DNA of 33,815 nucleotides from a bacterium ADurb.Bin236 (GCA_002069885.1 MWCD01000042.1:1-33815), one strand, 5' to 3'; shown: positions 1-28,115, counted from the first letter of the stretch. Program-made: numbers and translations. The notes: a model not told the origin generated them from the letters alone.

Positions 1-3000
1 CCGCCGCCGTAAGCATCGCAATACGATATGCTTAGCGCTGAGCACGGTTCACCGCTATCCTCTCCGGCTTCGCAATATTCATAAGACCAATAGCAATACG
101 GCGACTCGTTGCAAGCGTAAGGGTCATTCTGATCCATGCACGGATTAGCTCCGCAGTGATCGCCGTACCAGAAGCAGCCTTCCCAATTACAAGTATTGAT
201 GTCGTAGTACTGCGAGCAGACAGCGCCCTGATCTTGGTCGCACATATATCCGTTCCAAGCACACATGGCATCTTCATCGCATGCGACTTGGTCCGACGGC
301 CCGTACTTGAAGCAGCCAGCATCGCCTTGATTGGCGCAGAATTCCTCGCCATAGAACCACTCGCAATCAGGATCGGAATTGCACGTGGCGGGATCAGTTT
401 GCGAGTAATAACCGCATTCATAATATGCCTCAGCGCACACATTCGATGCAGAATACCAGTTGCAGTAGGCGCTATGAACCTCGCATGAAGCGTCGTCCAT
501 AAATGTCGAACAGTACATCTCGCTGTTCATTTCCATGCAATTGCCGGGATCGCCGGGATTCCAGACGCATCCGAAATCCATGTTGCAACTCGTCGGCTCA
601 GTATAACTTCCGCACAACAAATCCCATTGCGTGTTGCATACTCCATAGTATGAATCCCATACACAATATGGCTCGTTATCGCATGCTGTAGATTCGTCCC
701 AGCCGTAACTGGCGCAGCCGGCCGTCCCGAAATTCACGCATATGCTTTCGTTGTAATTCCATTCGCAAGAGCCTACCTGAGCGTCGCAATCGCCATTATT
801 CTCATAAACGCCGCAACCAGCCATTCCTTCAGGCACGCATGTTCCGTTGTTGAAGTTCCATTCACATTCCAATGAAGACGCGATGCAAGCGTTAGGCCCG
901 CCGAATTCTTCGTATGCCGAGCAATCGACGGCTATCGGGCCGCAGTTTCCGTATGGACCGCCGCTCGAGTACCACTCGCAGAAATCAGGATTTTGATTAC
1001 ATGAGTATTCAAATCCATAAGCCTCGCATTGGCTGCCGTGAACAAGCGTCTGACACTGATTTGAGCCATAACCGTCCCAATAACATCCGGTCGTAGCGTT
1101 GCAATCGTTATACTCGAAATAATCCGCGCATGTCCCGGTGTCTTCCTCGCATTGGTAGCCGTTCCAGTGTAAGCCCACGCCGCATTGCGCTACACACAAC
1201 TGATTGCCCGCGTCCCAGTAACAATCAAACGAGCTGCCGCAACTGTATTCATCGCCATTGAAAGCAGCGCAACCCGTTCCGCTTTCCAAACATTGACCAT
1301 AATAGTCGTTCCACTCGCAACCATTGTAATAACAGTCGCTGATGGTGTAGGATTCGCAACCCAAGTCATCGGTGCAGCTATATCCGTTCCAGTAGCAGTT
1401 TTCGTTGTTCTCACAAAAACTTTCAGAATAGTAATCATAACAATTGCCGGTGTCCATGTTGCAGTTATATCCGTCCCAATAACATCCCATAGTTCCGTTG
1501 CAGTCGATATCGTTGTAGATGTTCCAGCAGTCAGCTCCGCCCATATCCATCACACACTGGTAGCCGTCCCACATGCAGCCCATCGTATTCGCGCAATCAA
1601 CATCGTTGTATATCATCGAGCAGTCAGGACCCATGTCTTCTACGCACGCATATCCGTTCCAGTAACAGCCCATCGTGTTCCCGCAATCAACATCGTTGTA
1701 TATCATCGAGCAGTCAGGCCCCATGTCTTCGACACACGCATATCCGTTCCAGTAACAGCCCATCGTATTCCCGCAATCAACATCGTTGTATATCATCGAG
1801 CAGTCAGGCCCCATGTCCTGCACGCAGTACATCCCGTCCCACATGCAACCCATCGTGTTCGCACAATCGATATCGTTGTAAATCATTGAGCAGTCGGGAC
1901 CGCCGGCCACAACGCACTGGTCCACATCCCACGTACAGAGATAGTCTTTTCCGCATTGCGTCTGACTGGTGTAGTTCCAGCATTCACCGGGGATGATTTC
2001 CAAACAAGCCGTTTCGCCAGCGCTCCAATAGCATCCCGGTGCGGCGTCGCAATCAAACTCGCCCGGATAGTTGTAGCAACCGGGTCCGGGATCGAACGCC
2101 TCGCAATATCCATCGCCATAGGTGTTCCACTGACAGTACGTAGAGTGAAGTTCGCATAGGACTTGGTCGCTGCCGAAAAATCCGCAATTGCCTCCGTTGT
2201 CCAACATTTCACATCCGTTCACTCCGTCGTAATAACAGTTGGCGTCGTTGTTGCAATCGATTGAATTCTCATGCAGTGAGCATACATCGCCGAAATCCTG
2301 CACGCATTGGGCATACATTCCATCCCACATGCAACCGAACGTGTTGTCGCAATCCATCGGGTTAAAAATGTTGAAACACTCCGGCGGAGCGATATCTTGG
2401 ACGCATATCTGCTCCACATCATCCCACAAGCACCCCTGTTGCGTGTTGCACGAATTCATGTCCGTATAAGTGAAACATACCTCGGACATTTTGAACACGC
2501 AGGTGGTAGACATCGCATTCCATTCGCATCTTTCGTCGGCGACACAATCCATGTCGTTGAGATGAATATCAGTGCAGTCGCCTTCGAGCGAGAAACAATT
2601 TCCCGCGTAGTTGTTCCATCCGCAACTCATGTCGCCAGAACAAGACGGCATATCTTGATAAGCGGCGCAATCGTCAATCACTTCAAAGCACTCGCCGTAC
2701 ATAGCGTCCCAAGAGCATCCGGGCGTTGTCTGACACATCGACATGTCCAAGATAGCGCCGCAGCCGCCGCCGTCAGCCACGCAGTACATCCCATCCCACA
2801 TGCAGCCCATCGTGTTCACGCAATCGACATCGTTGTAAATCATCGAGCAGTCGGGCCCCATGTCCTGCATGCACATAGCGCCGTTCCAGTAACAACCCAT
2901 CGTCGCGTTGCACGATGATTCGTCCATCATCATAGGACACGTGGAACCGCCGCCATCCGTCACACAGTACATCCCGTCCCACATGCAGCCCATCGTGTTC

Positions 3001-6000
3001 GCGCAATCAATATCGTTGTAAATCATCGAACAGTCAGGCCCCATGTCCTGCACACAGGCCGTCCCGTCCCACATGCACCCCATCATGCCGTTGCATGAGA
3101 ATTCGTCTGTATTATTCCAACATTCGGGATTAACAACGTCTTCAATACAGTATGTGCCGTCCCACAAGCAATCCATTGTCGCGTTGCAAGTAGATTCATT
3201 AAGTATATTCCAGCACTCCGGCCCGCCCATGTCTTCGACGCAGTATGTTCCGTCCCACATGCAACCCATCGTGTTCCCGCAATCAACATCGTTGTAGATC
3301 ATCGAACAGTCGGGCCCCATGTCTTGCATGCACATAGTCCCGTTCCAGTAACAACCCATCGTCGCGTTGCACGATGATTCGTCCATCATCATCGGACACG
3401 TGGAGCCGCCGCCGTCCGTCACACAGTACATACCGTCCCACATACATCCCATGGTGTTCGTACAATCGACATCGTTGTAGATCATCGAACAGTCAGGCCC
3501 CATGTCATCAATACAATATGTGCCGTCCCACATACAGCCCTGCTGCATCTCGCACATGCCCATATCCGTGTATGTCGAACATACTTCTGACATTTTGAAC
3601 ACACATGTGTTCGACATCGAATTCCATTCGCACCTTTCATCGGCGACGCAATCCATGTCGTTGCTATGAATATCAGTGCAGTCGCCTTCGAGCGAGAAAC
3701 AAGTTCCAGCGTAGTTGTTCCATCCGCAACTCATATCTCCATTACAAGACGGCATATCCGAATAAGCGGCGCATTCGTCAATCACATCCTCGCAAACGCC
3801 GAAGTCATAGTCCCAGCTACAACCGGGGGTTTGGTCGCATATTCCAGAATTTACGTATTGTGAACATGAACCGCCCATGTCCATCACACAGTACATCCCG
3901 TCCCACATGCATCCCATCGTGTTCGAGCAGTCAACATCGTTAAGTATTTCGCCGCAAGATATTTCGCCTTGAGCCTCGCCGCAGAAATCCATATTCCATT
4001 GACAGGCGGGATCCATATTGCATTCTTCATACGTATGGGCGCCGCAATAGACCTTTCCGCTGTTTTCCAAACAAACCATCTCGGCGGCATTCCAGTAGCA
4101 ATCTTCCGTATTGGACATGCACGCGCTCATGTCATAGGCGCCGCAAATGCCGCCATCGAAATTGCATCTGGACTTCGAGGTATCCCAGAAACAATTCGCG
4201 TCTGTTTCGCACATCCCGGGATCGCCATAAATTTCGCAAGGATCAAAAACTGAAACACATTCCATCAATCCGAAATCGGGATTCGTGCCCTGCGGGCAAA
4301 CACAGAAGCCCGGCATCATCGGGTCTTCAACCGTTCCGCCAGTGCATTCTGCCGAACAACCGTCAATAAACGGATCCATGAAAGGCGTGGAGCCGCCGCA
4401 CACGCAACTTCCTTCGCTGTACACCATGCCGTCGGGGCAAATGCTCATGCATTCGCCTGCGGCTTGATCCGGATATGTCCCTTCAGGGCACATGCACATT
4501 CCGGGCATTTCAGGATCATCAGCCACAGCTCCGCCTGTGCAGCTTGCCACGCAAGTTTCCAAGAATGGGTCCATGAAAGGCGTGGAGCCGCCGCATACGC
4601 AATTGCCGCCGCTGAAAACCATTCCGTCGGGACAGGAACTTTTACACTGGCCGGTCGCATAGTCCGGATATGTCCCTTGCGGACACATGCACATTCCGGG
4701 CATCGCGGGGTCGTTCGCCGCAGTCCCGCCCGTGCAGCTTGTCAGACAGCCTTGATTGAACGGATCCATATAAGGAGCCGAGGGGCCGCAAACGCAGCCG
4801 TTTGCTCCCGCAATCATTCCGGCAGGACAATTAATAACGCATTGTTTTGTGGTGAAATTCGGCCCGTAACCTTGCGGGCAAACGCACATTCCGGGCGTCT
4901 CAGGATTTGTCACCTGTCCGCCCGAACAATTCGCAGAACAAGCAGCCGTAAACTGGTCCATCAAAGGAGCGTTCGGGCCGCATACGCATTCGCCGTTCTG
5001 CCCCATTATCATTCCAACCGGGCAACTGCTGACGCACTGTCCGGTGTTTATGTCGAGCGCCGTGCCGGGACCGCATACGCATCTCATATTCGCGGGGTCT
5101 CCGATTTTCGGAGCCGGACATGTCGTGTGGCATGTTCCGTAGAACTGATCGAGATACTGCCCTGTGGGGCATGTTACTGCTACAGTGGGACAATAGTTAG
5201 TGGCAGCGGTTCCGACTCTGCAAGGACACTGATCCGAAGTATTCGGAGCGCCATCGAGGTCGCAGTCGGGATTGGTCATAAGGTCGCAACCCACCGCGTC
5301 CGTTCCTTCCGGGCAAAGTCTCTGGAACGTGCCTGATTCAGTGACCACCACGCCTGTTTCATTAACACAGGGATTCGCGTCATTCACATTGAGTATGCCG
5401 TCCGCGTCGCAGTCTCTGCTCGCTATGGCAAAGTCGCACCCCGCGCCCGCCGTGCCCGTCGGGCAGATGGTGGCCGAAGCGTTGGCGACGCATGTTCTGG
5501 TCGTCGCGCTGAGAGATGTGCCGGTGGGGCACACGCATTGCTTCATAACTGGATCAATGACCTGTCCGCCCGAACAAGTGGCGAAGCAGCCATTGGATGA
5601 AACGTCATAATACAATCCGGTCTGGCACACGCATGCGCGAGTCGCCGGGTCGCCTGTCATCCCGGTGGGACACGCCGGCAGACAGTAGCCTTCCGCGCCG
5701 AGGAAGCCTGTGGCGCAGTAACATCTGCCTATCGACGAGTCTGCGACCTGTCCGCCCGTGCACGAGCTTACGCATCCGCCGACCGCCGCGTCAAAATATT
5801 GATTAGAGGCGCATTGAGCAAAGCTCGCGACCAGACACGACTGGGCGGATGAGCTCCACATAGTGCCGGAAGGACATATACAGTTGCCTTCGGGGGTCTT
5901 TATCTGGCCGCCGACGCACACCGCCGCAGATGGAGTCACCGTCTGATAAGTTCTGGTTCCGGGGTTGTCCTCGGCTTTGCGCGGGTCGGTTCCGGCTTGA

Positions 6001-8465
6001 ACTTCCTGCAGGTCGGTATAGTTATCTCCATCAGTATCCTTTTTATATGGGTCTGTGCCTAGGGCCATTTCCTGAGCGTTCAGCAGACCGTCGCCGTCGC
6101 AGTCACCATCGGGCAAGGCTTGAGCGTTACAACTCACGGCGCAAAGCGCGCTGTCGCGCCTGACCGGAGCAGATTCCCATTTGTTTGCGTTGCAGTCAAG
6201 ACCGTTTCTGAGTCCGTCAAGGTCGCAGTCCGCGTACTGGTCGGTGGGATCGCAAACGCACTTTAGGTCTTCGTCGATAAGACCATCGCCGTCGTTGTCG
6301 ATTCCGTCGGGCGATTCCTCGTCCACGCGTCCATCGCGGTCGTCATCGATTCTATTGTCGCACTTCATTCCTATCTGTGCGGCTTGCTCATTTGTCAGGG
6401 TGTCACAGTAAGTTTGGCTTAATCGGCTATCGCATTTGGCTCCAATGGCAGGCGAATCCTCGTCTTTGATCCCGTCGCCGTCGTTATCAAGACCGTCGAC
6501 CGGGTCCTCGTCGATTCTGCCGTCGCAGTCGTTGTCGATTCCATCTCCGACAACCATCGCGGTTCTTGTGCAAACGATTCCGCGAAGAACAATAGCGTTT
6601 TCAGCAGGGACAGATGCGGATATGTCGCCGATTCTGGCTCTCACGATGAGAGGATTGGCCGGGCCGCTGAAAATCGTCATTCTGGCCTGAGCGTAGTAAG
6701 CGTTGGAAGCGCCGGTCTGTCCGCTCGTTCTCGCCGCGGAAGAGCCGTCTTCCCTCGCCGCAGTGGCTCCTGCAATCGGCATCAGCGTTCTGCTTCCAAG
6801 GAAGGCTCCGTTTCCGTCCGTGAACGTCACAGTAAGCGCGCCGGAGAACGGAGTGGAGGATTTTGCTGTCGCTACCGCTTGAACGGAAGTCTGACCATTT
6901 ACCCACACGCCGCTCGGAACCAGCAACACGTCAACGTTCTGAATATTGACGCCCATCGCGGCGGCATTTGTCGTAGCTCCGGAATTGATTACCAATCTGG
7001 AAGTCTGACCGAACTGGTCGTTTGCCACGAACTCTATCGGCTTGGTGCAATCCTGCTGATAAAATCCGTCAAGCGCGAACGAACCGTCCGCGCCGATTGT
7101 CGCCTTGGGATTCCCTTTAATTGAAGTACCATTAATATAAACGTTGGTTCCGGGATCCGTCATGCCTGAAATCGGAATCCACGGACACTGCATAAAACCT
7201 TCTATCGGGTTTGATATTTCCAGTTTCGGAGGAGCGACTGCATCTATGGTCACTTTGGCTTCCGCTTTGCATGTGCCATCCGAATTTGAACAAATGACTG
7301 AAACCGTTGTGTCTCCTGCCGACGCCAATGTGAATTCCGAGGTGAACGCCCCCTCAGATCCGGCAGTGACAGAGGCTCCGCCCAAAACACAGGTAGCTCC
7401 AGCGATTGTCTTTCCTGAAACAGTGACCGTTCCCTTCGTCAGAGGATACGAGCCGCCGTCCTCAGGTTTGGACAACTCCACAAAACATTCTACCTCTTCC
7501 TCTTCCTCGTCAGCGTCTTCTTCATCTGAAGTTGCCACGGCAACCGTGCCGGTGGCTGTTTCGGAACCGGATGCTGCAGGCGGAGCTACACACACGCCGC
7601 CTACGCCACAGTTTTTGCTGCAACACTCGTCGCCGGCTTTGCAGGCCGAACCGTTGGGAATACAGGCGGCTGCAGTCTGGTCTGCCGCTTTCTCCGCGCA
7701 AACGCCATCCGCGCAATTTCCGCTGCAACAGTCTTTGCCCGTTGTGCAAGCTGCTTCGATAACGCGGCATCCACCGCTCTGCATGGCGGATTCTTCGCCT
7801 TCGCACTGTCCGTCGACGCACTTATGTGACATGCAGTCCTCGTCGACTTCGCAAGCGTTCATCTCTTCGTTGGAGATAGGAACCGGGGGAGCCGGAGGCT
7901 GGTTCGGCTGAACAACCACCTGCGTGCCGGGAACCGCCATAACCGACTGTCCCTGAGACATAACCTCAACCGAGCCTGTCCTTGTCGTGACGCTAGTTGT
8001 GTTCTCAGGGGTGTTCTCCATGTCGAACTCGGTTCCGCGAACGCCTGCCACCGCGGTCGGAGTGCTAATCGAGAACTCCGAACTTGGGTTGTGCAGTTTC
8101 TCGGCCTTCGCCTTAACTTTGCCGGTCATCAAATCAAGGTTCGACGTGACCGTTTTTGTCCTCGGATCAATGTCGATATCCTTAATCGTGAAGTTTGTAA
8201 AAGGGTTAATCTTCAATGTGTTTGAAGAACTCCACTTAACCGTGGCGGATGACTTTGCGCCCGTTTTTATTTGTGTCCCGCTTGGCAGGGACATGTTGAC
8301 CGTGCCGGGCTGCCACGAACCTCCGGGCAACATAATCTGCACGTCGCCTGTGACGCTCTGCAACGACGCCGTTACCGGCAGCGCTCTGAGATGCGCCGCG
8401 TACAACGCCACCGCTAGAACAAAAAGAATCATTACTGGAACAAACCTAATCGTCCTTTTACACAT
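1..8465 (-). CDS. Giant secreted cysteine-rich repeat protein with FecR domain (C-terminus outside window)
   Basis: The frame is open from ATG 8465 to the left edge; I checked it codon by codon over 1-1500 and at many later points and found no stop. It gives at least 2,821 residues. In order: a signal peptide or anchor (about 6-28); a FecR domain (about 38-165) ending in the hallmark STPTAVAGVRGTEF; two short CxxDxxC/CC knots (205-300); an acidic linker; an Ig-like segment (330-430); MopE/thrombospondin-3 type DGIDNDGDG repeats (635-830), probably calcium sites; CPxG modules resembling EGF/TNFR-type repeats (850-1405); then Cys/Trp repeats of the type C-x(6-9)-C-x(4-6)-C-x-W-(D/N)-G-x(2)-C to the edge. 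About 12% of residues near the C-terminal side are Cys and there is no CxxCH haem motif. I infer an extracellular or surface role; no function is known to me. The start is preceded by a G-rich stretch (GCGGGGGT). Two CRP-type sites lie upstream. Confidence 0.9.
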   Translation of the reverse strand, partial: MCKRTIRFVPVMILFVLAVALYAAHLRALPVTASLQSVTGDVQIMLPGGSWQPGTVNMSLPSGTQIKTGAKSSATVKWSSSNTLKINPFTNFTIKDIDIDPRTKTVTSNLDLMTGKVKAKAEKLHNPSSEFSISTPTAVAGVRGTEFDMENTPENTTSVTTRTGSVEVMSQGQSVMAVPGTQVVVQPNQPPAPPVPISNEEMNACEVDEDCMSHKCVDGQCEGEESAMQSGGCRVIEAACTTGKDCCSGNCADGVCAEKAADQTAAACIPNGSACKAGDECCSKNCGVGGVCVAPPAASGSETATGTVAVATSDEEDADEEEEEVECFVELSKPEDGGSYPLTKGTVTVSGKTIAGATCVLGGASVTAGSEGAFTSEFTLASAGDTTVSVICSNSDGTCKAEAKVTIDAVAPPKLEISNPIEGFMQCPWIPISGMTDPGTNVYINGTSIKGNPKATIGADGSFALDGFYQQDCTKPIEFVANDQFGQTSRLVINSGATTNAAAMGVNIQNVDVLLVPSGVWVNGQTSVQAVATAKSSTPFSGALTVTFTDGNGAFLGSRTLMPIAGATAAREDGSSAARTSGQTGASNAYYAQARMTIFSGPANPLIVRARIGDISASVPAENAIVLRGIVCTRTAMVVGDGIDNDCDGRIDEDPVDGLDNDGDGIKDEDSPAIGAKCDSRLSQTYCDTLTNEQAAQIGMKCDNRIDDDRDGRVDEESPDGIDNDGDGLIDEDLKCVCDPTDQYADCDLDGLRNGLDCNANKWESAPVRRDSALCAVSCNAQALPDGDCDGDGLLNAQEMALGTDPYKKDTDGDNYTDLQEVQAGTDPRKAEDNPGTRTYQTVTPSAAVCVGGQIKTPEGNCICPSGTMWSSSAQSCLVASFAQCASNQYFDAAVGGCVSSCTGGQVADSSIGRCYCATGFLGAEGYCLPACPTGMTGDPATRACVCQTGLYYDVSSNGCFATCSGGQVIDPVMKQCVCPTGTSLSATTRTCVANASATICPTGTAGAGCDFAIASRDCDADGILNVNDANPCVNETGVVVTESGTFQRLCPEGTDAVGCDLMTNPDCDLDGAPNTSDQCPCRVGTAATNYCPTVAVTCPTGQYLDQFYGTCHTTCPAPKIGDPANMRCVCGPGTALDINTGQCVSSCPVGMIMGQNGECVCGPNAPLMDQFTAACSANCSGGQVTNPETPGMCVCPQGYGPNFTTKQCVINCPAGMIAGANGCVCGPSAPYMDPFNQGCLTSCTGGTAANDPAMPGMCMCPQGTYPDYATGQCKSSCPDGMVFSGGNCVCGGSTPFMDPFLETCVASCTGGAVADDPEMPGMCMCPEGTYPDQAAGECMSICPDGMVYSEGSCVCGGSTPFMDPFIDGCSAECTGGTVEDPMMPGFCVCPQGTNPDFGLMECVSVFDPCEIYGDPGMCETDANCFWDTSKSRCNFDGGICGAYDMSACMSNTEDCYWNAAEMVCLENSGKVYCGAHTYEECNMDPACQWNMDFCGEAQGEISCGEILNDVDCSNTMGCMWDGMYCVMDMGGSCSQYVNSGICDQTPGCSWDYDFGVCEDVIDECAAYSDMPSCNGDMSCGWNNYAGTCFSLEGDCTDIHSNDMDCVADERCEWNSMSNTCVFKMSEVCSTYTDMGMCEMQQGCMWDGTYCIDDMGPDCSMIYNDVDCTNTMGCMWDGMYCVTDGGGSTCPMMMDESSCNATMGCYWNGTMCMQDMGPDCSMIYNDVDCGNTMGCMWDGTYCVEDMGGPECWNILNESTCNATMDCLWDGTYCIEDVVNPECWNNTDEFSCNGMMGCMWDGTACVQDMGPDCSMIYNDIDCANTMGCMWDGMYCVTDGGGSTCPMMMDESSCNATMGCYWNGAMCMQDMGPDCSMIYNDVDCVNTMGCMWDGMYCVADGGGCGAILDMSMCQTTPGCSWDAMYGECFEVIDDCAAYQDMPSCSGDMSCGWNNYAGNCFSLEGDCTDIHLNDMDCVADERCEWNAMSTTCVFKMSEVCFTYTDMNSCNTQQGCLWDDVEQICVQDIAPPECFNIFNPMDCDNTFGCMWDGMYAQCVQDFGDVCSLHENSIDCNNDANCYYDGVNGCEMLDNGGNCGFFGSDQVLCELHSTYCQWNTYGDGYCEAFDPGPGCYNYPGEFDCDAAPGCYWSAGETACLEIIPGECWNYTSQTQCGKDYLCTWDVDQCVVAGGPDCSMIYNDIDCANTMGCMWDGMYCVQDMGPDCSMIYNDVDCGNTMGCYWNGYACVEDMGPDCSMIYNDVDCGNTMGCYWNGYACVEDMGPDCSMIYNDVDCANTMGCMWDGYQCVMDMGGADCWNIYNDIDCNGTMGCYWDGYNCNMDTGNCYDYYSESFCENNENCYWNGYSCTDDLGCESYTISDCYYNGCEWNDYYGQCLESGTGCAAFNGDEYSCGSSFDCYWDAGNQLCVAQCGVGLHWNGYQCEEDTGTCADYFEYNDCNATTGCYWDGYGSNQCQTLVHGSQCEAYGFEYSCNQNPDFCEWYSSGGPYGNCGPIAVDCSAYEEFGGPNACIASSLECEWNFNNGTCVPEGMAGCGVYENNGDCDAQVGSCEWNYNESICVNFGTAGCASYGWDESTACDNEPYCVWDSYYGVCNTQWDLLCGSYTEPTSCNMDFGCVWNPGDPGNCMEMNSEMYCSTFMDDASCEVHSAYCNWYSASNVCAEAYYECGYYSQTDPATCNSDPDCEWFYGEEFCANQGDAGCFKYGPSDQVACDEDAMCAWNGYMCDQDQGAVCSQYYDINTCNWEGCFWYGDHCGANPCMDQNDPYACNESPYCYWSYEYCEAGEDSGEPCSALSISYCDAYGG
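1530..1919 (-). repeat. 90-bp tandem repeats inside the giant gene
   Basis: The block beginning CAATCAACATCG (plus strand) recurs with its preceding base pair at 1591, 1681, 1771 and (as CAATCGATATCG) 1861, exactly 90 bp apart. Each unit encodes 30 residues of the DMGPDCSMIYNDVDC / NTMGCxWxG type. Near identity at DNA level, including third positions, points to recent copying rather than old divergence. Confidence 0.85.
2461..3839 (-). repeat. Nested long duplications inside the giant gene
   Basis: Positions 2461-2735 match 3565-3839 at a constant offset of 1,104 bp (368 codons); for example both contain CAGTCGCCTTCGAGCGAGAA. Between them, 2782-3045 matches 3241-3504 at a constant offset of 459 bp (153 codons). 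Both offsets are multiples of three, so the duplications preserve the reading frame. The array has grown by block duplication at several scales. Confidence 0.8.
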
Positions 8466-8692
8466 TGAACGACCCCCGCTTATTAAGTTTTTCGAAAAAG
8501 TAAATGTAACAGTGATAATTAGTTGTGGTGATGCTATGTAACATAAGACATTGTGCCATATTGTCGTTATACTAACAAAACAATTTTACCATAGTCACTT
8601 CTTTTATGGAAGAGCATTTTTTTCTCATTACTCCATCCAGATTTTGTATTCTATGCTTACTCATTTAATTAAAATCACAAAAAACCTATTAC

Positions 8693-8698
8693 ATTATC
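8693..8698 (-). promoter_or_regulatory. Candidate -10 element for the giant gene (class II CRP geometry)
   Basis: The minus strand reads GATAAT here. If it serves as -10, the start point falls near 8686 and the nearer CRP-type site (centre 8727.5) lies at -41.5, the standard class II position. No good -35 is present, as expected of a class II activated promoter. The spacing is computed from sequence; the function is inferred. Confidence 0.45.
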
Positions 8699-8719: not shown

Positions 8720-8735
8720 TGTGACTATGCTCACC
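8720..8735. promoter_or_regulatory. CRP-type operator, proximal
   Basis: The sequence is TGTGA-N6-TCACC, matching nine of the ten conserved bases of the TGTGA-N6-TCACA consensus. Its centre is 23 bp from that of the distal site, about two helical turns, so both could be bound on the same face. Confidence 0.7.
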
Positions 8736-8742
8736 GATGCCA

Positions 8743-8758
8743 TGTGATAATTGTCACA
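8743..8758. promoter_or_regulatory. CRP-type operator, distal, perfect consensus
   Basis: The sequence is TGTGA-TAATTG-TCACA, a perfect match to both conserved half-sites of the E. coli-type CRP consensus. It lies between the CRP-like gene stop and the giant gene start, about 278 bp upstream of the latter, and would sit near -64.5 relative to the candidate start point. Confidence 0.8.
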
Positions 8759-8786
8759 CCCTCTCCGCATAGCTTGAGAAATCTGT

Positions 8787-9467
8787 CTAATATACTCTGC
8801 TTTTCAGTCCGTCCGCGCTTTTTATAATGAAGGAATTTTTCTTTATATTTATATAACCCATCATCTCCAAAGTTTTTAACGCTCGCGTGAGCGTCTCCCT
8901 AGTGGTTCCAACAAGACTCGCCAATTCGGTTCTTTTGTGTGTCACCTTAATCTCAATACCCTCCGCCGAACTAATCCCATCTTCTCTTGCCATGTCGAGA
9001 AGAATCCGAGCCAACCTTCCGCAAACATCCAGAAAAACCAAGCTCTCCATGCTCTCGTTGGCATTCCTCAAGCGTCTTCCCAGCACTCTTAACACTTTAA
9101 TTGCTATATCAGGATGGCTCGTGAACTGTTTAATGAAGTCTTCTCTTCCGAGCGTCACCACTTCCGTCGGCTCAATGGCTACGACAGTCGCCGATCTCGG
9201 TTCACCGTCTATTAAGGACAGTTCGCCGAAGAATTCCTGAGACTGAAGAATTCCGACTATGAATTCCTTGCCCTCATCGTCTGCCAGAACGACTTTCACC
9301 CTGCCTGACACAATTGAGAAAAACGAATCGCCTTCATCCTGCTTATGAATGATGATTTCATCTTTATCGTATTTTTTATATGTAGAAGCTTTGCTCAGAG
9401 CTTCCAGTTCGTTGCCTGTCAAATCAGAGAAAAGAGGGACTTTCTCAAAAACTTCCTTTGTAGTCAT
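8787..9467 (-). CDS. CRP/FNR-family cyclic-nucleotide-binding transcription regulator
   Basis: This 226-residue protein has the CRP layout: a cyclic-nucleotide-binding beta-barrel (about 8-125), a dimer helix (about 125-150) and a winged helix-turn-helix (about 165-218). The phosphate-binding cassette is present as GELSLIDGEPRSAT (81-94), including the Arg-Ser pair that holds cAMP phosphate in CRP. The recognition helix reads TRETLTRALK, keeping the Arg, Glu and Arg (190, 191, 195) that read TGTGA in E. coli CRP. There are no FNR-type N-terminal cysteines. I chose ATG 9467 because GGAGG lies 10 nt upstream; a longer start at 9506 lacks this. It is divergent from an adenylate cyclase gene and upstream of two CRP-type sites, so I infer a cAMP-responsive activator. 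Confidence 0.93.
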   Translation of the reverse strand: MTTKEVFEKVPLFSDLTGNELEALSKASTYKKYDKDEIIIHKQDEGDSFFSIVSGRVKVVLADDEGKEFIVGILQSQEFFGELSLIDGEPRSATVVAIEPTEVVTLGREDFIKQFTSHPDIAIKVLRVLGRRLRNANESMESLVFLDVCGRLARILLDMAREDGISSAEGIEIKVTHKRTELASLVGTTRETLTRALKTLEMMGYINIKKNSFIIKSADGLKSRVY

Positions 9468-9568
9468 ATCAACAAATCCTCCAGAGACAGCGCAACATTC
9501 GCGCATAACAAACTGTAATTTTCATCATGGAATTGGTATTAAGTAAAATCGAATCACACATTATTTTC

Positions 9569-9574
9569 ATTATA
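9569..9574 (-). promoter_or_regulatory. Candidate -10 (TATAAT) for the CRP-like gene
   Basis: The minus strand reads a perfect TATAAT about 100 nt upstream of the start codon. The -35 region is weak (ATTCCA with a 17-nt spacer), so the assignment is tentative. Confidence 0.4.
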
Positions 9575-9694
9575 CACAGTTTTAGATGAAATGGAATAAG
9601 TGATTTTAGAAAGCTACCGGCAGCCGCGACTTGCGTCAATGAGCGCCATTGAATTGAAATAAACGGAGCTATTAATGAAATATTGCCGCTCTTC

Positions 9695-9703
9695 TGTTAA
9701 AAT
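9695..9703 (+). promoter_or_regulatory. Candidate extended -10 for the cyclase gene
   Basis: The sequence TG-T-TAAAAT fits an extended -10 element 74 nt upstream of the GTG start. No convincing -35 is visible. Confidence 0.35.
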
Positions 9704-9776
9704 TATGTCCACTAATTCTGCGGGCAGAAGTAAACCGCGGCTGTAGGCGTTAATTCTTAGCCTTGCCGAGGAACCG

Positions 9777-12641
9777 GTGTCGCCGCAGATTTACAGAAGC
9801 GGAGAAAGCGCTGTGGCGCGAAGCCTTCTGGATATCGACAGTCTAATAAACGAGTCTACGGAACTCGCCGCCTTGGGTCGGCACAATGACGCCGCTTTAG
9901 GTTTTCGCCAAGCTCTCTCAGGACTTGAGGACAGATTCCGAGGGGCAGCAGGCCAGTTGCCGGTGGATATAATAGAGCGGCGTTTCAGACTTTTGCTGCG
10001 CCTCGCGCGCGCGCATATCGACGGAGACTCGCCTCTCAAAGCCATACCTTGCGCCACCGAAGCTATGGCCATCGCGCGCGGTCCGTTCTCCGACTATCCT
10101 GAATTTTTTCTAAGAGCGGCGTTCGAACTTGGATCAAGCTATCTTGCTTCGGGAGACACTGCTGCTGCGAAGTCAATAATCACCGAATCGGCAAAGGTTT
10201 CAAGATCTACATCGGCCGACTCATCAGCCCTTCCACAGATGTTGTCGGCGTTGGCAGTAGGGAGACTTTTTGCGGCCGAGGGAAAATCCGCTCCCGCAAT
10301 CGCGGCTTTCGAGCATGGAGTTAAATCGTCTCCTGAACCGACGGACGTTGAAACAGCGTTGGTGAAATCCGACCTTTTATTATCGCTCGGCGACGCCGTC
10401 TCCCGCCTGTCTATGGCTGATAAAGCTTTTCAATCATACATAGAAGCGGTTTCAACTCTTAGGAATTCGGGGATTGAAGCGATAAAGAACAACAAATCCC
10501 TTGACGCGGCTGTTCTGTTGGCGTCGGCCAGAAAGATTTTTCAGAAACTTCCCAACACTGCAGAATGTGTCGCCGCTCGGATTGATTCCGATATATCTCT
10601 TGCATCGATATTGGACATGCGCGGCAGGTGGGAAGAGGCGGACAAGCTGTGCCGTGAAGCCGCGGAGCTGCTTCAACGCACCGGAGTGTCCCATCCTCGC
10701 GGAGCAGCCCTAGCGCGCATAGGAATGGGCACTTTCCTGACTCACATGAAAAAATATGAAGATGCCGCGGTTGAACTTTCTCGCGCTGTTGAAATCGCGG
10801 AAAAAAACAACGATATTTTCGCCCTTTGCGTCGCGCAATACAATCTCGGACTTGCCCTGTCAAAGCGTGGATCAGATGAAAAAGGAACAAAACTGTTCGA
10901 GGAAGCGTTGGACATGTTGTCCACTTCCCTGCCCGACGATGCGGACGCAAAGAGATTGATGGCTTTGATAAGGAATCAGTTAGGCTTTATCAGCGCGCGC
11001 GCGCGGCGATTCGACGCCGCCGTCGAACATTTCCAGCAGAGCATCGAGTTGCTGAGGAACAGACCGGCGGACACCGCCATCGGCGAGACGTATCGCTTGT
11101 TGGGCGAAATCTATTCCGAACGCGGCCAGAACATGCAGAGCGAGCGGGCCTTAAAGAAAGCTCTGAAAACTTTCGAGGACGCTGGAGCCGTTTATGAGAC
11201 CGCCCGCACATTCAGAAGCATCGGAGTCAACTTCCTGTCTACAGGCGAATTGGACAAAGCAATTTACTTTCTTGACGAGAGCATCAGCTTGCTCGAAAAG
11301 CTTGGAATAGAAGCAGAGCTTCCCATGGCGTACAGCACGAAAGCTAAAGCCTGCGTGATGATGGAAGAGTACGCGCAAGCGGAGTCTCTTTTCACCAAGG
11401 ACTTCAACATTGCCAAGAAATCGGAGAACAAGCATTCGCTGGCGTTTTCGTACTTTCATCTGGCAAGGATAAGGCGTCTATTGGGAAGGTCTCATACCGC
11501 CGAAGATTTCCTCAAACGCAGCTTGGACCTTTTCAATGAGGTGAACAACAGGGAGATGGCGGCGCTGACCATGCTTGAAATGGCTTTGTGCGCCTCCGCC
11601 CGAAGAGACACTAAAACAGCCACCGACCTCTGCGCCAAAGCGCAATCTGTTTTCGAGGCGTCAAAGAATCAGGAGAATATCGCCTGCGAACTTCTTACGC
11701 GAGGCATAGTGCTGAGAGAAGCAAAACGCCGCCAGATGGCGCGGCGGTGCTATGAAGACTGCATCAGAATCCATGAAAAGCTTAATCCTGCGGCTCTCGA
11801 ACTGGCGGAGGCGCATTTTGAGTTCGCCATGTTCTGGCGAGAGGAGAGCGACAAAAAATCGGCGACCCGCCATATCCTGAACGCTATAGAAATAACTGAA
11901 AAACTCGGTCTCACAAAAAAACTCAGCAAGTATCTGGCCGCCCTGAACGATATTAACCCGGAAGCGGGAGCGGGAATGAGGCTCTCCCGAATCATGGGCA
12001 AGTCCGGCGCGGAACAGATGATAAAAACGAAGGACGAGGACAAACTTACCGTAGAACAGAAAAATCTCACGGTGTTCTTTACCGATATACGAGGTTTCAC
12101 TACAATATCGGAGACCTTGTCGCTTGAGGAGTTGAACTCGTTCCTTAATGATTTCTACACCAGCGTCACCCAAGTAATTATCAGGTTCGGGGGGCTTATC
12201 AACAAGTTCATAGGCGATGAGGTCATGGCGCTGTTCAATATCGACGGCGCTCTGGAGGATCACCCCGCGCGCGCGCTGAAAGCGGCCGTGGAGCTTGTCA
12301 GAACTATGGGCGAAGTCAACATGATTCGCGAGCGGCGCGGCGAGACTCCCATTCATCTGGGAATCGGAGTGAACTGCGGAGATGTTCTAATCGGCACTTT
12401 CGGTTCGTCTCTCAGGCAGGATTACACCGCCATCGGGGACACTGTGAACACTGCCGCGCGACTGCAAGCCAAGGCGGGACCCGGCGAAATTGTTGTGAGC
12501 CAGAAGGTTTACGACGCGGCTTCGGATGTCATCGCCGAAGCGGAGGACATGGGAGAAATACCTTTAAAAGGAAAAGACCGCGCCGCCAGATTATGGAAAA
12601 TCAAGGCGCTTAAAGAAGAGGCGACACGGGAGGGGCAATAA
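9777..12641 (+). CDS. TPR-repeat class III adenylate cyclase
   Basis: This 954-residue protein makes cAMP from ATP, by family inference. Residues about 20-720 form serial tetratricopeptide-like helices; residues about 755-945 form a class III cyclase catalytic domain. The metal aspartates are in FTDIRGFT (D770) and KFIGDE (D814). The adenine-specifying pair is intact: K810 and D882 (in QDYTAIGD). The transition-state Asn and Arg (N891, R895) are also present, so an active adenylate rather than guanylate cyclase is predicted. No membrane segment is apparent; it is likely cytoplasmic, with TPRs sensing a partner protein. The GTG start is preceded by CCGAGGAACC. It is divergent from the CRP-like gene and its stop is 1 nt before efp, suggesting coupled translation. 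Confidence 0.93.
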   Translation: MSPQIYRSGESAVARSLLDIDSLINESTELAALGRHNDAALGFRQALSGLEDRFRGAAGQLPVDIIERRFRLLLRLARAHIDGDSPLKAIPCATEAMAIARGPFSDYPEFFLRAAFELGSSYLASGDTAAAKSIITESAKVSRSTSADSSALPQMLSALAVGRLFAAEGKSAPAIAAFEHGVKSSPEPTDVETALVKSDLLLSLGDAVSRLSMADKAFQSYIEAVSTLRNSGIEAIKNNKSLDAAVLLASARKIFQKLPNTAECVAARIDSDISLASILDMRGRWEEADKLCREAAELLQRTGVSHPRGAALARIGMGTFLTHMKKYEDAAVELSRAVEIAEKNNDIFALCVAQYNLGLALSKRGSDEKGTKLFEEALDMLSTSLPDDADAKRLMALIRNQLGFISARARRFDAAVEHFQQSIELLRNRPADTAIGETYRLLGEIYSERGQNMQSERALKKALKTFEDAGAVYETARTFRSIGVNFLSTGELDKAIYFLDESISLLEKLGIEAELPMAYSTKAKACVMMEEYAQAESLFTKDFNIAKKSENKHSLAFSYFHLARIRRLLGRSHTAEDFLKRSLDLFNEVNNREMAALTMLEMALCASARRDTKTATDLCAKAQSVFEASKNQENIACELLTRGIVLREAKRRQMARRCYEDCIRIHEKLNPAALELAEAHFEFAMFWREESDKKSATRHILNAIEITEKLGLTKKLSKYLAALNDINPEAGAGMRLSRIMGKSGAEQMIKTKDEDKLTVEQKNLTVFFTDIRGFTTISETLSLEELNSFLNDFYTSVTQVIIRFGGLINKFIGDEVMALFNIDGALEDHPARALKAAVELVRTMGEVNMIRERRGETPIHLGIGVNCGDVLIGTFGSSLRQDYTAIGDTVNTAARLQAKAGPGEIVVSQKVYDAASDVIAEAEDMGEIPLKGKDRAARLWKIKALKEEATREGQ

Positions 12642-12642
12642 A

Positions 12643-13206
12643 GTGACGACCACAAACGATTTGTACAACGGCATGTTCTTCGAGTATGACAACAACATCC
12701 TCGAAGTAACCGAGTTCCTGCACGTCAAACCCGGCAAAGGCCCGGCTTTCGTCCGCGCGAAAGTCAGGAACATGCGCACAGGGGCTTTGGTGGAGAGAAC
12801 TTTTCGGGCGGGAGAGAAAATCGAAAAACTCCGCATCGACAAAAAAGACATGGAATATCTTTATCAGGATGGAGAAGGCTACGTGTTCATGGACACGCAG
12901 ACCTATGAACAGGTACACATCCCCGCCGTCCTTCTGGGCGATCAGGTGAAGCTGCTCAAACCGAACTCCACGATGCACGTGCTGTTTTACGGGAGCGAGA
13001 TTCTAGGGGCCGAACTGGATCAGTTCATGGAATACGTCATCGAGTTCGCGGAGCCGGGCGAAAAAGGCAACACCGTGCAGGGAGCTCTTAAAAGAGCAAG
13101 GCTCGAAACGGGAGCGGAAGTCATGGTTCCGCTTTTCATAGAAGCTGGAAGCGTTGTCAAAATCGACACCCGCACTATGCGCTACATAGAGCGAGTGAGC
13201 AAATGA
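12643..13206 (+). CDS. efp: Translation elongation factor P
   Basis: EF-P binds ribosomes stalled at polyproline stretches and helps peptide-bond formation. The 187-residue length is standard. The N-terminal KOW-like domain carries HVKPGKGPAF with the lysine that is modified in many species (K32 here). The C-terminal OB domain carries the family signature GNTVQGALKRARLETG followed by VPLFIEAG and DTRTMRYIERV. It starts with GTG 1 nt after the cyclase stop, within GGAGGGGCAATAAAGTG, so it is probably translated from the same message as the cyclase. That link is unusual and may mean that cAMP synthesis and EF-P are co-expressed. Confidence 0.97.
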   Translation: MTTTNDLYNGMFFEYDNNILEVTEFLHVKPGKGPAFVRAKVRNMRTGALVERTFRAGEKIEKLRIDKKDMEYLYQDGEGYVFMDTQTYEQVHIPAVLLGDQVKLLKPNSTMHVLFYGSEILGAELDQFMEYVIEFAEPGEKGNTVQGALKRARLETGAEVMVPLFIEAGSVVKIDTRTMRYIERVSK

Positions 13207-24867: not shown

Positions 24868-26178
24868 TTGACAGCAAGAAATGTCATTTCAACGTATATG
24901 ACATTAGGCCAAAAGCATACACAGACATCCTCACAAGCAGCGTTGCCAGCGCCCTTTTTCGAATATATGACTGTATCTTGTTTTTCTATAACTTATCTAG
25001 TTTCCGGCCAGAAGCTCAAAGCCGACACCGATTGGCAATATCAGTACGACAACCGGGGCAACCTCGTCCGCAAACTTTCCAACGCCTCAAACCCCCGCGT
25101 CGAATGGCGCTACCACTGGGACGGCTCGGACCGACTGCGCAAAGCCGTTTTCTCAAACGAAACTACAAACACCACCCTGAAAGTGGTAGAATACTATTAC
25201 GATGTCCTTGGCCGCAGAGCCGCAAAAAGCATAGACGGCAACGCCGACGGCGCGCCCGACGCCGTCACGAAATACGCTTATGACGGAGACGACATATTGT
25301 ACGAATTCGACGGCTCCAACGCGCTGAAAGCCCGGCACACGCACGGCCCCGGCACGGACGACCCTCTGTACACTCAAACCGGAGCCGCGCAATACTTCTA
25401 CTACCACAAAGACGGCATGGGCAGCGTGCGCGAGATCACAAACGGAGCGGGAGAAGTCGCGCGCCGAAACGATTACGACAGCTTCGGCAACATCGTCAGC
25501 GTGAACGGCTGCCCGACCGCCCCCGAATACCCCGCCGCGCCCGGCGCGGCTTGCGACGGGGCCGGGGCCGGGGCCGGAGACGCCTATTTCGCGCCCGCGC
25601 ATGAGTTCTACTTCACATACGCATACACCGGCCGCCAGTGGGACGCGGAAGCCAGCCTCTACCACTACCGCGCCCGCTACTACGACCCCCACATCGGCCG
25701 CTTCATCTCCGAAGACCCCCAATGGTCCCCCAACCTCTACGCCTACGTCTCCAACAACCCTATGAAATACACCGACCCGAGCGGCTCGTTTTTAAAATTT
25801 TTGTTTGGTGGTTTTGCTGGTTGGTGGAAGGATTTTGTCGATATTGCCACTACAACAGAAAGAGGCAATATTATTCACATTCAAACAAGATTTATTGAAT
25901 ATATTTCCGGAGTAATTACATTGTCGGATTTTCGATGTGCTTTTGCTATAGCTTTTTACAGGATACAATATGCTCTCTTCATGCTCGCAGATCCAGCCCG
26001 TAGCGAAAGACAATGGAAACCTGAAATCCTCTATTTGGGACATAGGATTAAAGTCATTTTCACTCCAATCATAGAAGATGTGCCAGATGCTCTTGACTTT
26101 AAAATTGAACCTAAACTCCCTGAATATAAACCTTTTGATATACGGACTCCAAGCAGTTCGTCTTCACCGAGGTCATGA
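24868..26178 (+). CDS. 5'-truncated RHS-core protein with variable tip 1
   Basis: A 436-residue frame, far shorter than full RHS proteins (usually above 1,000). Only two or three YD repeats remain (WQYQYDNRGNLVRKLS, YHWDGSDRLRKAVF, about residues 55-95), followed by the RHS-associated core ending RYYDPHIGRFISEDPQ and YAYVSNNPMKYTDPSG (about 270-305). The last 130 residues form a unique tip, with a hydrophobic start (FLKFLFGGFAGWWKDFVDIA) and no motif I recognise. No signal peptide is evident; the first 45 residues do not look RHS-like, and the start (TTG 24868 or ATG 24898) is uncertain. DNA after the core turns AT-rich, consistent with an imported tip. The stop almost touches the next gene. 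Confidence 0.75.
   Translation: MTARNVISTYMTLGQKHTQTSSQAALPAPFFEYMTVSCFSITYLVSGQKLKADTDWQYQYDNRGNLVRKLSNASNPRVEWRYHWDGSDRLRKAVFSNETTNTTLKVVEYYYDVLGRRAAKSIDGNADGAPDAVTKYAYDGDDILYEFDGSNALKARHTHGPGTDDPLYTQTGAAQYFYYHKDGMGSVREITNGAGEVARRNDYDSFGNIVSVNGCPTAPEYPAAPGAACDGAGAGAGDAYFAPAHEFYFTYAYTGRQWDAEASLYHYRARYYDPHIGRFISEDPQWSPNLYAYVSNNPMKYTDPSGSFLKFLFGGFAGWWKDFVDIATTTERGNIIHIQTRFIEYISGVITLSDFRCAFAIAFYRIQYALFMLADPARSERQWKPEILYLGHRIKVIFTPIIEDVPDALDFKIEPKLPEYKPFDIRTPSSSSSPRS
25247..25784 (+). repeat. RHS core direct repeat, copy A
   Basis: This 538-bp segment recurs at 27578-28115 without gaps. By eye there are three mismatches (25305, 25761, 25767), two of them within the last 25 bp. It encodes the RHS-associated core from GAPDAVTKYAYDG to TDPSG. 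It ends exactly where the tips diverge. Confidence 0.95.
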
Positions 26179-27577: not shown

Positions 27578-28115
27578 ACGGCGCGCCCGACGCCGTCACG
27601 AAATACGCTTATGACGGAGACGACATATTGTACGAGTTCGACGGCTCCAACGCGCTGAAAGCCCGGCACACGCACGGCCCCGGCACGGACGACCCTCTGT
27701 ACACTCAAACCGGAGCCGCGCAATACTTCTACTACCACAAAGACGGCATGGGCAGCGTGCGCGAGATCACAAACGGAGCGGGAGAAGTCGCGCGCCGAAA
27801 CGATTACGACAGCTTCGGCAACATCGTCAGCGTGAACGGCTGCCCGACCGCCCCCGAATACCCCGCCGCGCCCGGCGCGGCTTGCGACGGGGCCGGGGCC
27901 GGGGCCGGAGACGCCTATTTCGCGCCCGCGCATGAGTTCTACTTCACATACGCATACACCGGCCGCCAGTGGGACGCGGAAGCCAGCCTCTACCACTACC
28001 GCGCCCGCTACTACGACCCCCACATCGGCCGCTTCATCTCCGAAGACCCCCAATGGTCCCCCAACCTCTACGCCTACGTCTCCAACAACCCGATGAATTA
28101 CACCGACCCGAGCGG
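27578..28115 (+). repeat. RHS core direct repeat, copy B
   Basis: This is the second copy of the 538-bp core repeat, 2,331 bp downstream of copy A and in the same orientation. The left boundary is abrupt: identity begins at ACGGCGCGCC, and the preceding bases differ completely. Confidence 0.95.

Follow-up and report, generated by a model that had tools for sequence, protein, structure and literature searches.

Tandem CRP-type operators with predicted class II geometry upstream of a giant cysteine-rich protein gene in an uncultivated bacterial lineage

The locus described here lies in the 3.87 Mb draft genome of bacterium ADurb.Bin236 (G000), on a contig (C42) that constitutes the window, that is, the whole stretch of 33,815 nt that was analysed. 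A giant gene, interrupted by the contig end (positions 3-8465, minus strand), is separated by a 321-bp gap from the gene of a 239-residue CRP-family regulator (8787-9506, minus strand), and a gene combining TPR and class III adenylate/guanylate cyclase domains (9777-12641, plus strand) runs divergently from the latter. The elongation factor P gene (efp, 12643-13206, plus strand), given as context only, follows directly 3' of the cyclase. No Rfam elements or tRNA genes were found in the whole 33,815-nt window. Elsewhere in it, a perfect 300-nt direct repeat occupies positions 25247-25546 and 27578-27877, 2,331 bp apart; a gene at 24868-26178, with a borderline RHS repeat match, holds the first copy, which suggests that displaced tips follow an Rhs-type gene.

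The giant gene encodes a FecR domain, TSP3-type and cysteine-rich stretches, and an array of four-cysteine CxW repeats of about 31 aa. Some 45 copies are present in the incomplete gene of the window and about 71 in a genome of the same genus (G001), where the gene is complete (3,683 aa). The array, at 3-4240 on the minus strand, is unusual for a bacterial protein. The repeats give sub-threshold Pfam matches to the Plexin repeat (PSI) and to the Paramecium surface antigen domain, and a model of them shows a helix and a hairpin per repeat at low confidence (pLDDT 64.6); no known structure matched it significantly, a PSI-containing receptor being the best of the weak hits. An N-terminal hydrophobic segment, together with the repeats, suggests a surface protein, and no anchor was identified in it. 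A paralog in the same genome (L101:1885-7368, contig C24), 75% identical at the N-terminus, carries a different repeat array, of CDDTNALTFDECSNPGLLSAACVNT type, and then a few CxW repeats. It lacks a good operator; a weaker site of the TGTGAC-N4-ATATCAA type and a TTGACA lie upstream, conserved in four congeners.

The regulator belongs to the CRP/FNR superfamily by its cNMP_binding (PF00027, 87 bits, cut-off 27.5) and HTH_Crp_2 (PF13545, 56 bits, cut-off 27) domains, and it is the only HTH_Crp_2 protein above the cut-off in its genome. It is 35% identical to E. coli CRP over 208 aligned residues and scores 136 bits against the NCBIfam equivalog PRK11753, below the cut-off of 266. In the alignment, R180, E181, R185 and K188 are kept, which bears out the RETxxR motif earlier read in the recognition helix; this motif, combined with TGTGA-N6-TCACA operators, is the recognition signature of CRP proper. 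Among the activating regions, as defined in PMC6603298 together with the AR3 and K52 mutants, AR2 is largely lost (H19T, K101D), K52 is replaced by Ala, and the AR3 surface is acidic at D53, D54, E55 and E58. The acidic surface and the K52A replacement are compatible with a class II activation driven by contact through AR3.

Two predicted CRP operators lie in the gap between the regulator and giant genes, with their centers 23 bp apart: a distal one, TGTGATAATTGTCACA (8743-8758, unstranded), whose palindromic half-sites are perfect, and a promoter-proximal one, TGTGACTATGCTCACC (8720-8735, unstranded), with one mismatch. At the rates observed in this genome, a perfect site in the gap accompanied within 50 bp by a second one of no more than one mismatch has an expected frequency of about 1e-6. 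A predicted -10 hexamer, GATAAT (8693-8698, minus strand), without a good -35, would define a class II promoter of the giant gene, the proximal operator being centered at about -41.5 provided that transcription starts near 8686, 12 nt downstream of the hexamer's first base. The position and spacing of the two sites, as well as the hexamer and the geometry deduced from it, are as the sequence-only reading had described them. Hexamers of this kind occur by chance at about 2-5% of positions in the compared gaps, and the match to the GATAAT position in relatives, with this 2-5% chance per genome, is by itself weak evidence. Within the window, neither the regulator gene nor the cyclase gene was found to be preceded by an operator of at most two mismatches.

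Seven genomes of the order, including that of the window, were found for comparison (G000-G006). In G001, whose CRP is 96% identical, all 20 half-site bases of the two operators (distal, TGTGATAGTTGTCACA; proximal, TGTGACTGCGCTCACC) are identical to those of the window, versus 83% identity over the rest of the gap, and the N6 stretches of both operators differ; the giant gene and the neighboring cyclase are also kept. G006 belongs to another family of the same order, and its CRP is 60% identical. Here, the CRP gene is followed by a weak distal counterpart, CGTGACGCCAATCACG, and a proximal operator, TGTGACTTTAATCACA, 24 bp apart, then by TAAAAT and by the start of a FecR protein, at which point the contig ends. 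Over 98 residues this protein shares 55% identity with the giant, so that the CRP gene, the tandem sites, and a FecR giant persist although the other DNA is unalignable. The -10-like hexamer (AATAAT in G001, TAAAAT in G006) lies 21 nt after TCACA, with the same spacing as GATAAT, and the distance from the proximal center to the ATG of the giant is 262.5 bp in the window, 262.5 bp in G001, and 265.5 bp in G006. The expectation that the same operator would precede related giant genes is thus borne out in both genomes, and the loss of the sites from close relatives keeping the genes, which would have spoken against the sequence-only reading, is not seen in the congener. A third genome with the giant (G002) falls outside this comparison, since only 246 bp of its contig precede the ATG, slightly too few to reach the sites. 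As for more distant homologues, a FecR-domain protein of G004 lacks such sites and also the CxW repeats, and in G005 a FecR-domain protein sharing 31% identity with the N-terminus of the giant is preceded, at a distance of 307 bp, by a perfect site.

The conserved sites and distances in G001 and G006 provide the strongest evidence that the operator would work on the giant gene. Palindromes can mimic operators, and these come after the stop codon of the CRP gene, so that they might be chance occurrences or a piece of the CRP terminator hairpin; nevertheless, a scan found no terminator-like signal at the tandem sites, the half-sites are kept while the N6 changes, the enrichment described below is specific for the spacing, and the conservation in G006 largely refutes this explanation, which we regard as extremely improbable. 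We consider the predicted tandem operator to be real and conserved. A different question is whether the regulator represses the giant gene, or works on a promoter elsewhere in the 321-bp gap, given that the start of transcription is known by prediction only, the -10 match is short, and a leader of about 220 nt would result. The exact 21-nt distance between site and hexamer and the 262-265 bp between site and ATG, maintained in three genomes, argue against it, as does the fact that no competing promoter reached the threshold of the promoter scan on the minus strand, and this alternative seems unlikely. The operator at about -41.5 over a poor -35, with a predicted start, fits class II geometry in the three genomes, and the comparison lends good support to the prediction that a CRP-type regulator activates the giant gene in class II fashion.

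The same operator occurs throughout the genome. Perfect TGTGA-N6-TCACA sites number seven, versus none for a reversed-pattern control, and sites with at most one mismatch 77, versus 30; as the half-site itself is altered in the reversed control, the spacing test, in which the N6 share among TGTGA-N(1-12)-TCACA pairs is compared with the expected 1/12, is the stronger one. This share is 7/25 in the genome of the window, 17/44 in G006, and 18/52 in G005, the last two being significant alone (3e-8 and about 1e-7, respectively), with a modest excess within the genus (5/27 in G001 and 4/19 in G002, p of about 0.07 each). Pooled over six genomes it amounts to 57/193 (binomial, about 1e-17), a figure that overstates independence since the genomes are related. 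No CRP ortholog was found in the 95% complete G005 despite the N6 enrichment, which is most simply explained by a gap in the draft.

By simple ORF rules rather than a gene caller, six of the seven perfect sites and 24 of the 51 inspected sites fall between genes. From a sampling of about 50 site contexts, which makes the regulon list partial, the genes near intergenic sites include those for acetyl-CoA synthetase (acs), thiolase, an AMP-binding enzyme of the acyl-CoA-synthetase type, 3-hydroxyacyl-CoA dehydrogenase, H+-PPase, RnfC, and an MFS transporter. In six of the seven genomes (G000-G004 and G006), a perfect site precedes the dehydrogenase gene by 184-207 bp, its N6 varying between genera. 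From these contexts, acs and the genes for 3-hydroxyacyl-CoA dehydrogenase, thiolase, H+-PPase, and RnfC are probable CRP targets. Promoter-like hexamers are found at various distances from the other regulon sites, and no single -10 offset common to all of them stood out. Because sites precede metabolic genes genome-wide, the regulator is, as far as its predicted sites indicate, a global one with a carbon and energy regulon, and not private to the giant gene.

The cyclase probably starts at a GTG at 9813, the start common to the window and G001, since the reading frame of G001 has an in-frame stop in the region corresponding to 9777-9812. Its catalytic domain (PF00211, 91 bits) shows Lys (NKFIGDE) and Thr (DYTAIGDTVN) as the substrate pair, the second residue being located seven residues before the catalytic Asn, with D157/A164 of Ma1120 as a guide (PMC4215837). 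The Lys/Asp pair previously assigned to this protein has to be corrected accordingly, Lys being present and the second residue being Thr, in a class IIIb-like arrangement. P. aeruginosa CyaB also has Thr at this position, and Lys with either Asp or Thr specifies adenine, which predicts an adenylyl cyclase, possibly a contributor to the cAMP pool. Class III cyclases number nine in the genome, and six of them, on contigs C2, C8, and C23, form three pairs about 3 kb apart.

It could be thought that the adjoining cyclase supplies the cAMP with which CRP switches on the giant gene, in a compact, dedicated circuit. The two genes are indeed divergent neighbors in G000 and G001, with a well-conserved intergenic sequence, but this pairing was seen inside the genus only. 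The cyclase orthologs of G004, G005, and G006 (51, 48, and 44% identical) do not adjoin a CRP gene: in G006 the two are on different contigs, in G004 and G005 the cyclase is kept with no CRP ortholog detected, and nusB and xseA, which lie downstream in the window, are found close to the cyclase gene of G004 and of G006 as well. Together with the nine cyclases and the genome-wide operator, this makes such a circuit quite improbable, and a dedicated cyclase-CRP unit is rejected on synteny and on the number of cyclases. Of the sequence-only reading, what finds support is the reading of TGTGA-N6-TCACA sites by a CRP-type protein, with a class II promoter for the giant gene; the compact circuit does not, for these reasons and for the lack of an operator before either the CRP or the cyclase gene.

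The identity of the ligand is less clear-cut. According to the list of cAMP contacts of CRP (PMC11253593), the phosphoribose contacts E72, L73, R82, S83, V86, and R123 are kept in the regulator (L73 and V86 as read off the printed alignment), whereas all three adenine contacts differ from E. coli (S62G, T127A, and S128N). Two of these changes, T127A and S128N, also occur in the 60% identical ortholog of G006 and hence are old. The regulator might then bind its operators without cAMP, or with another ligand such as cGMP or a different small molecule, and would not be a cAMP switch. There are precedents in the family: Deinococcus radiodurans DdrI, also with Ala at the T127 position, binds DNA without cAMP (PMC11253593), and Clr responds to both cAMP and cGMP (PMC10127613). 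However, DdrI has lost the equivalents of S83 and R123, both kept here, and its pocket is filled by Tyr and Arg (PMC11253593); GlxR, with Asn at the S128 position, binds cAMP (PMC4254451); and nine class III cyclases are encoded in the genome. We find a cAMP-independent regulator possible but rather unlikely, and cAMP is the likely ligand. In a broader and more doubtful version, a lineage-wide CRP with a remodelled adenine pocket, either constitutively active or answering to a ligand other than cAMP, would have kept the ancestral operator and would couple to energy status the production of giant PSI-like cysteine-repeat surface proteins, two of which, differing in their repeat arrays, are encoded in this genome.

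All together, the best explanation, which we hold to be probable, is that a global CRP activates the giant gene from a class II promoter along with an energy regulon. The single CRP of the lineage, carrying a cyclic nucleotide (cAMP being the likeliest), would bind as a dimer to each of the adjacent operators. The proximal dimer, about 41.5 bp before the start and in place of a -35, would recruit RNA polymerase to GATAAT, and the adjacent distal dimer would provide stronger occupancy or an extra contact. The giant FecR/cysteine-rich protein would thus be co-produced with a regulon for carbon and energy of the starvation type (acs, fatty-acid oxidation, H+-PPase, and Rnf). In this picture, sequence comparison shows the operators and their conservation, the geometry of the promoter, the N6-specific enrichment of sites over the genome, and the residues of the recognition helix, whereas the binding, an activating and not a repressing effect, cAMP as the ligand, and the contact through AR3 are inferred. 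This switch is ordinary in kind and useful in place: its CRP operator, for which a class II geometry can be predicted and probable targets named, is a clear and testable case from an uncultivated lineage whose order is represented here by only seven genomes; a giant cysteine-repeat protein of surface type would come under carbon and energy control through it; and the choice of ligand, given the changes in the adenine pocket, becomes an easily tested question.

A search of the literature for such a circuit in candidate phyla found nothing relevant. Among the best full-length relatives of the regulator with solved structures, at about 114 bits, are M. tuberculosis CRP (3d0s/3i54) and Corynebacterium GlxR (3r6s), which share with it the Asn at the S128 position; M. 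tuberculosis CRP, unlike the regulator with its Ala, keeps Thr at the T127 position. E. coli CRP differs in its adenine contacts, in an AR2 that is largely lost here, and in having Lys rather than Ala at position 52. The likeness to the E. coli system, with class II CRP promoters such as galP1, extends from the TGTGA-N6-TCACA operator, the R180/E181/R185 residues, and the predicted -41.5 position to the probable targets of the regulator, which include acs and fatty-acid genes.
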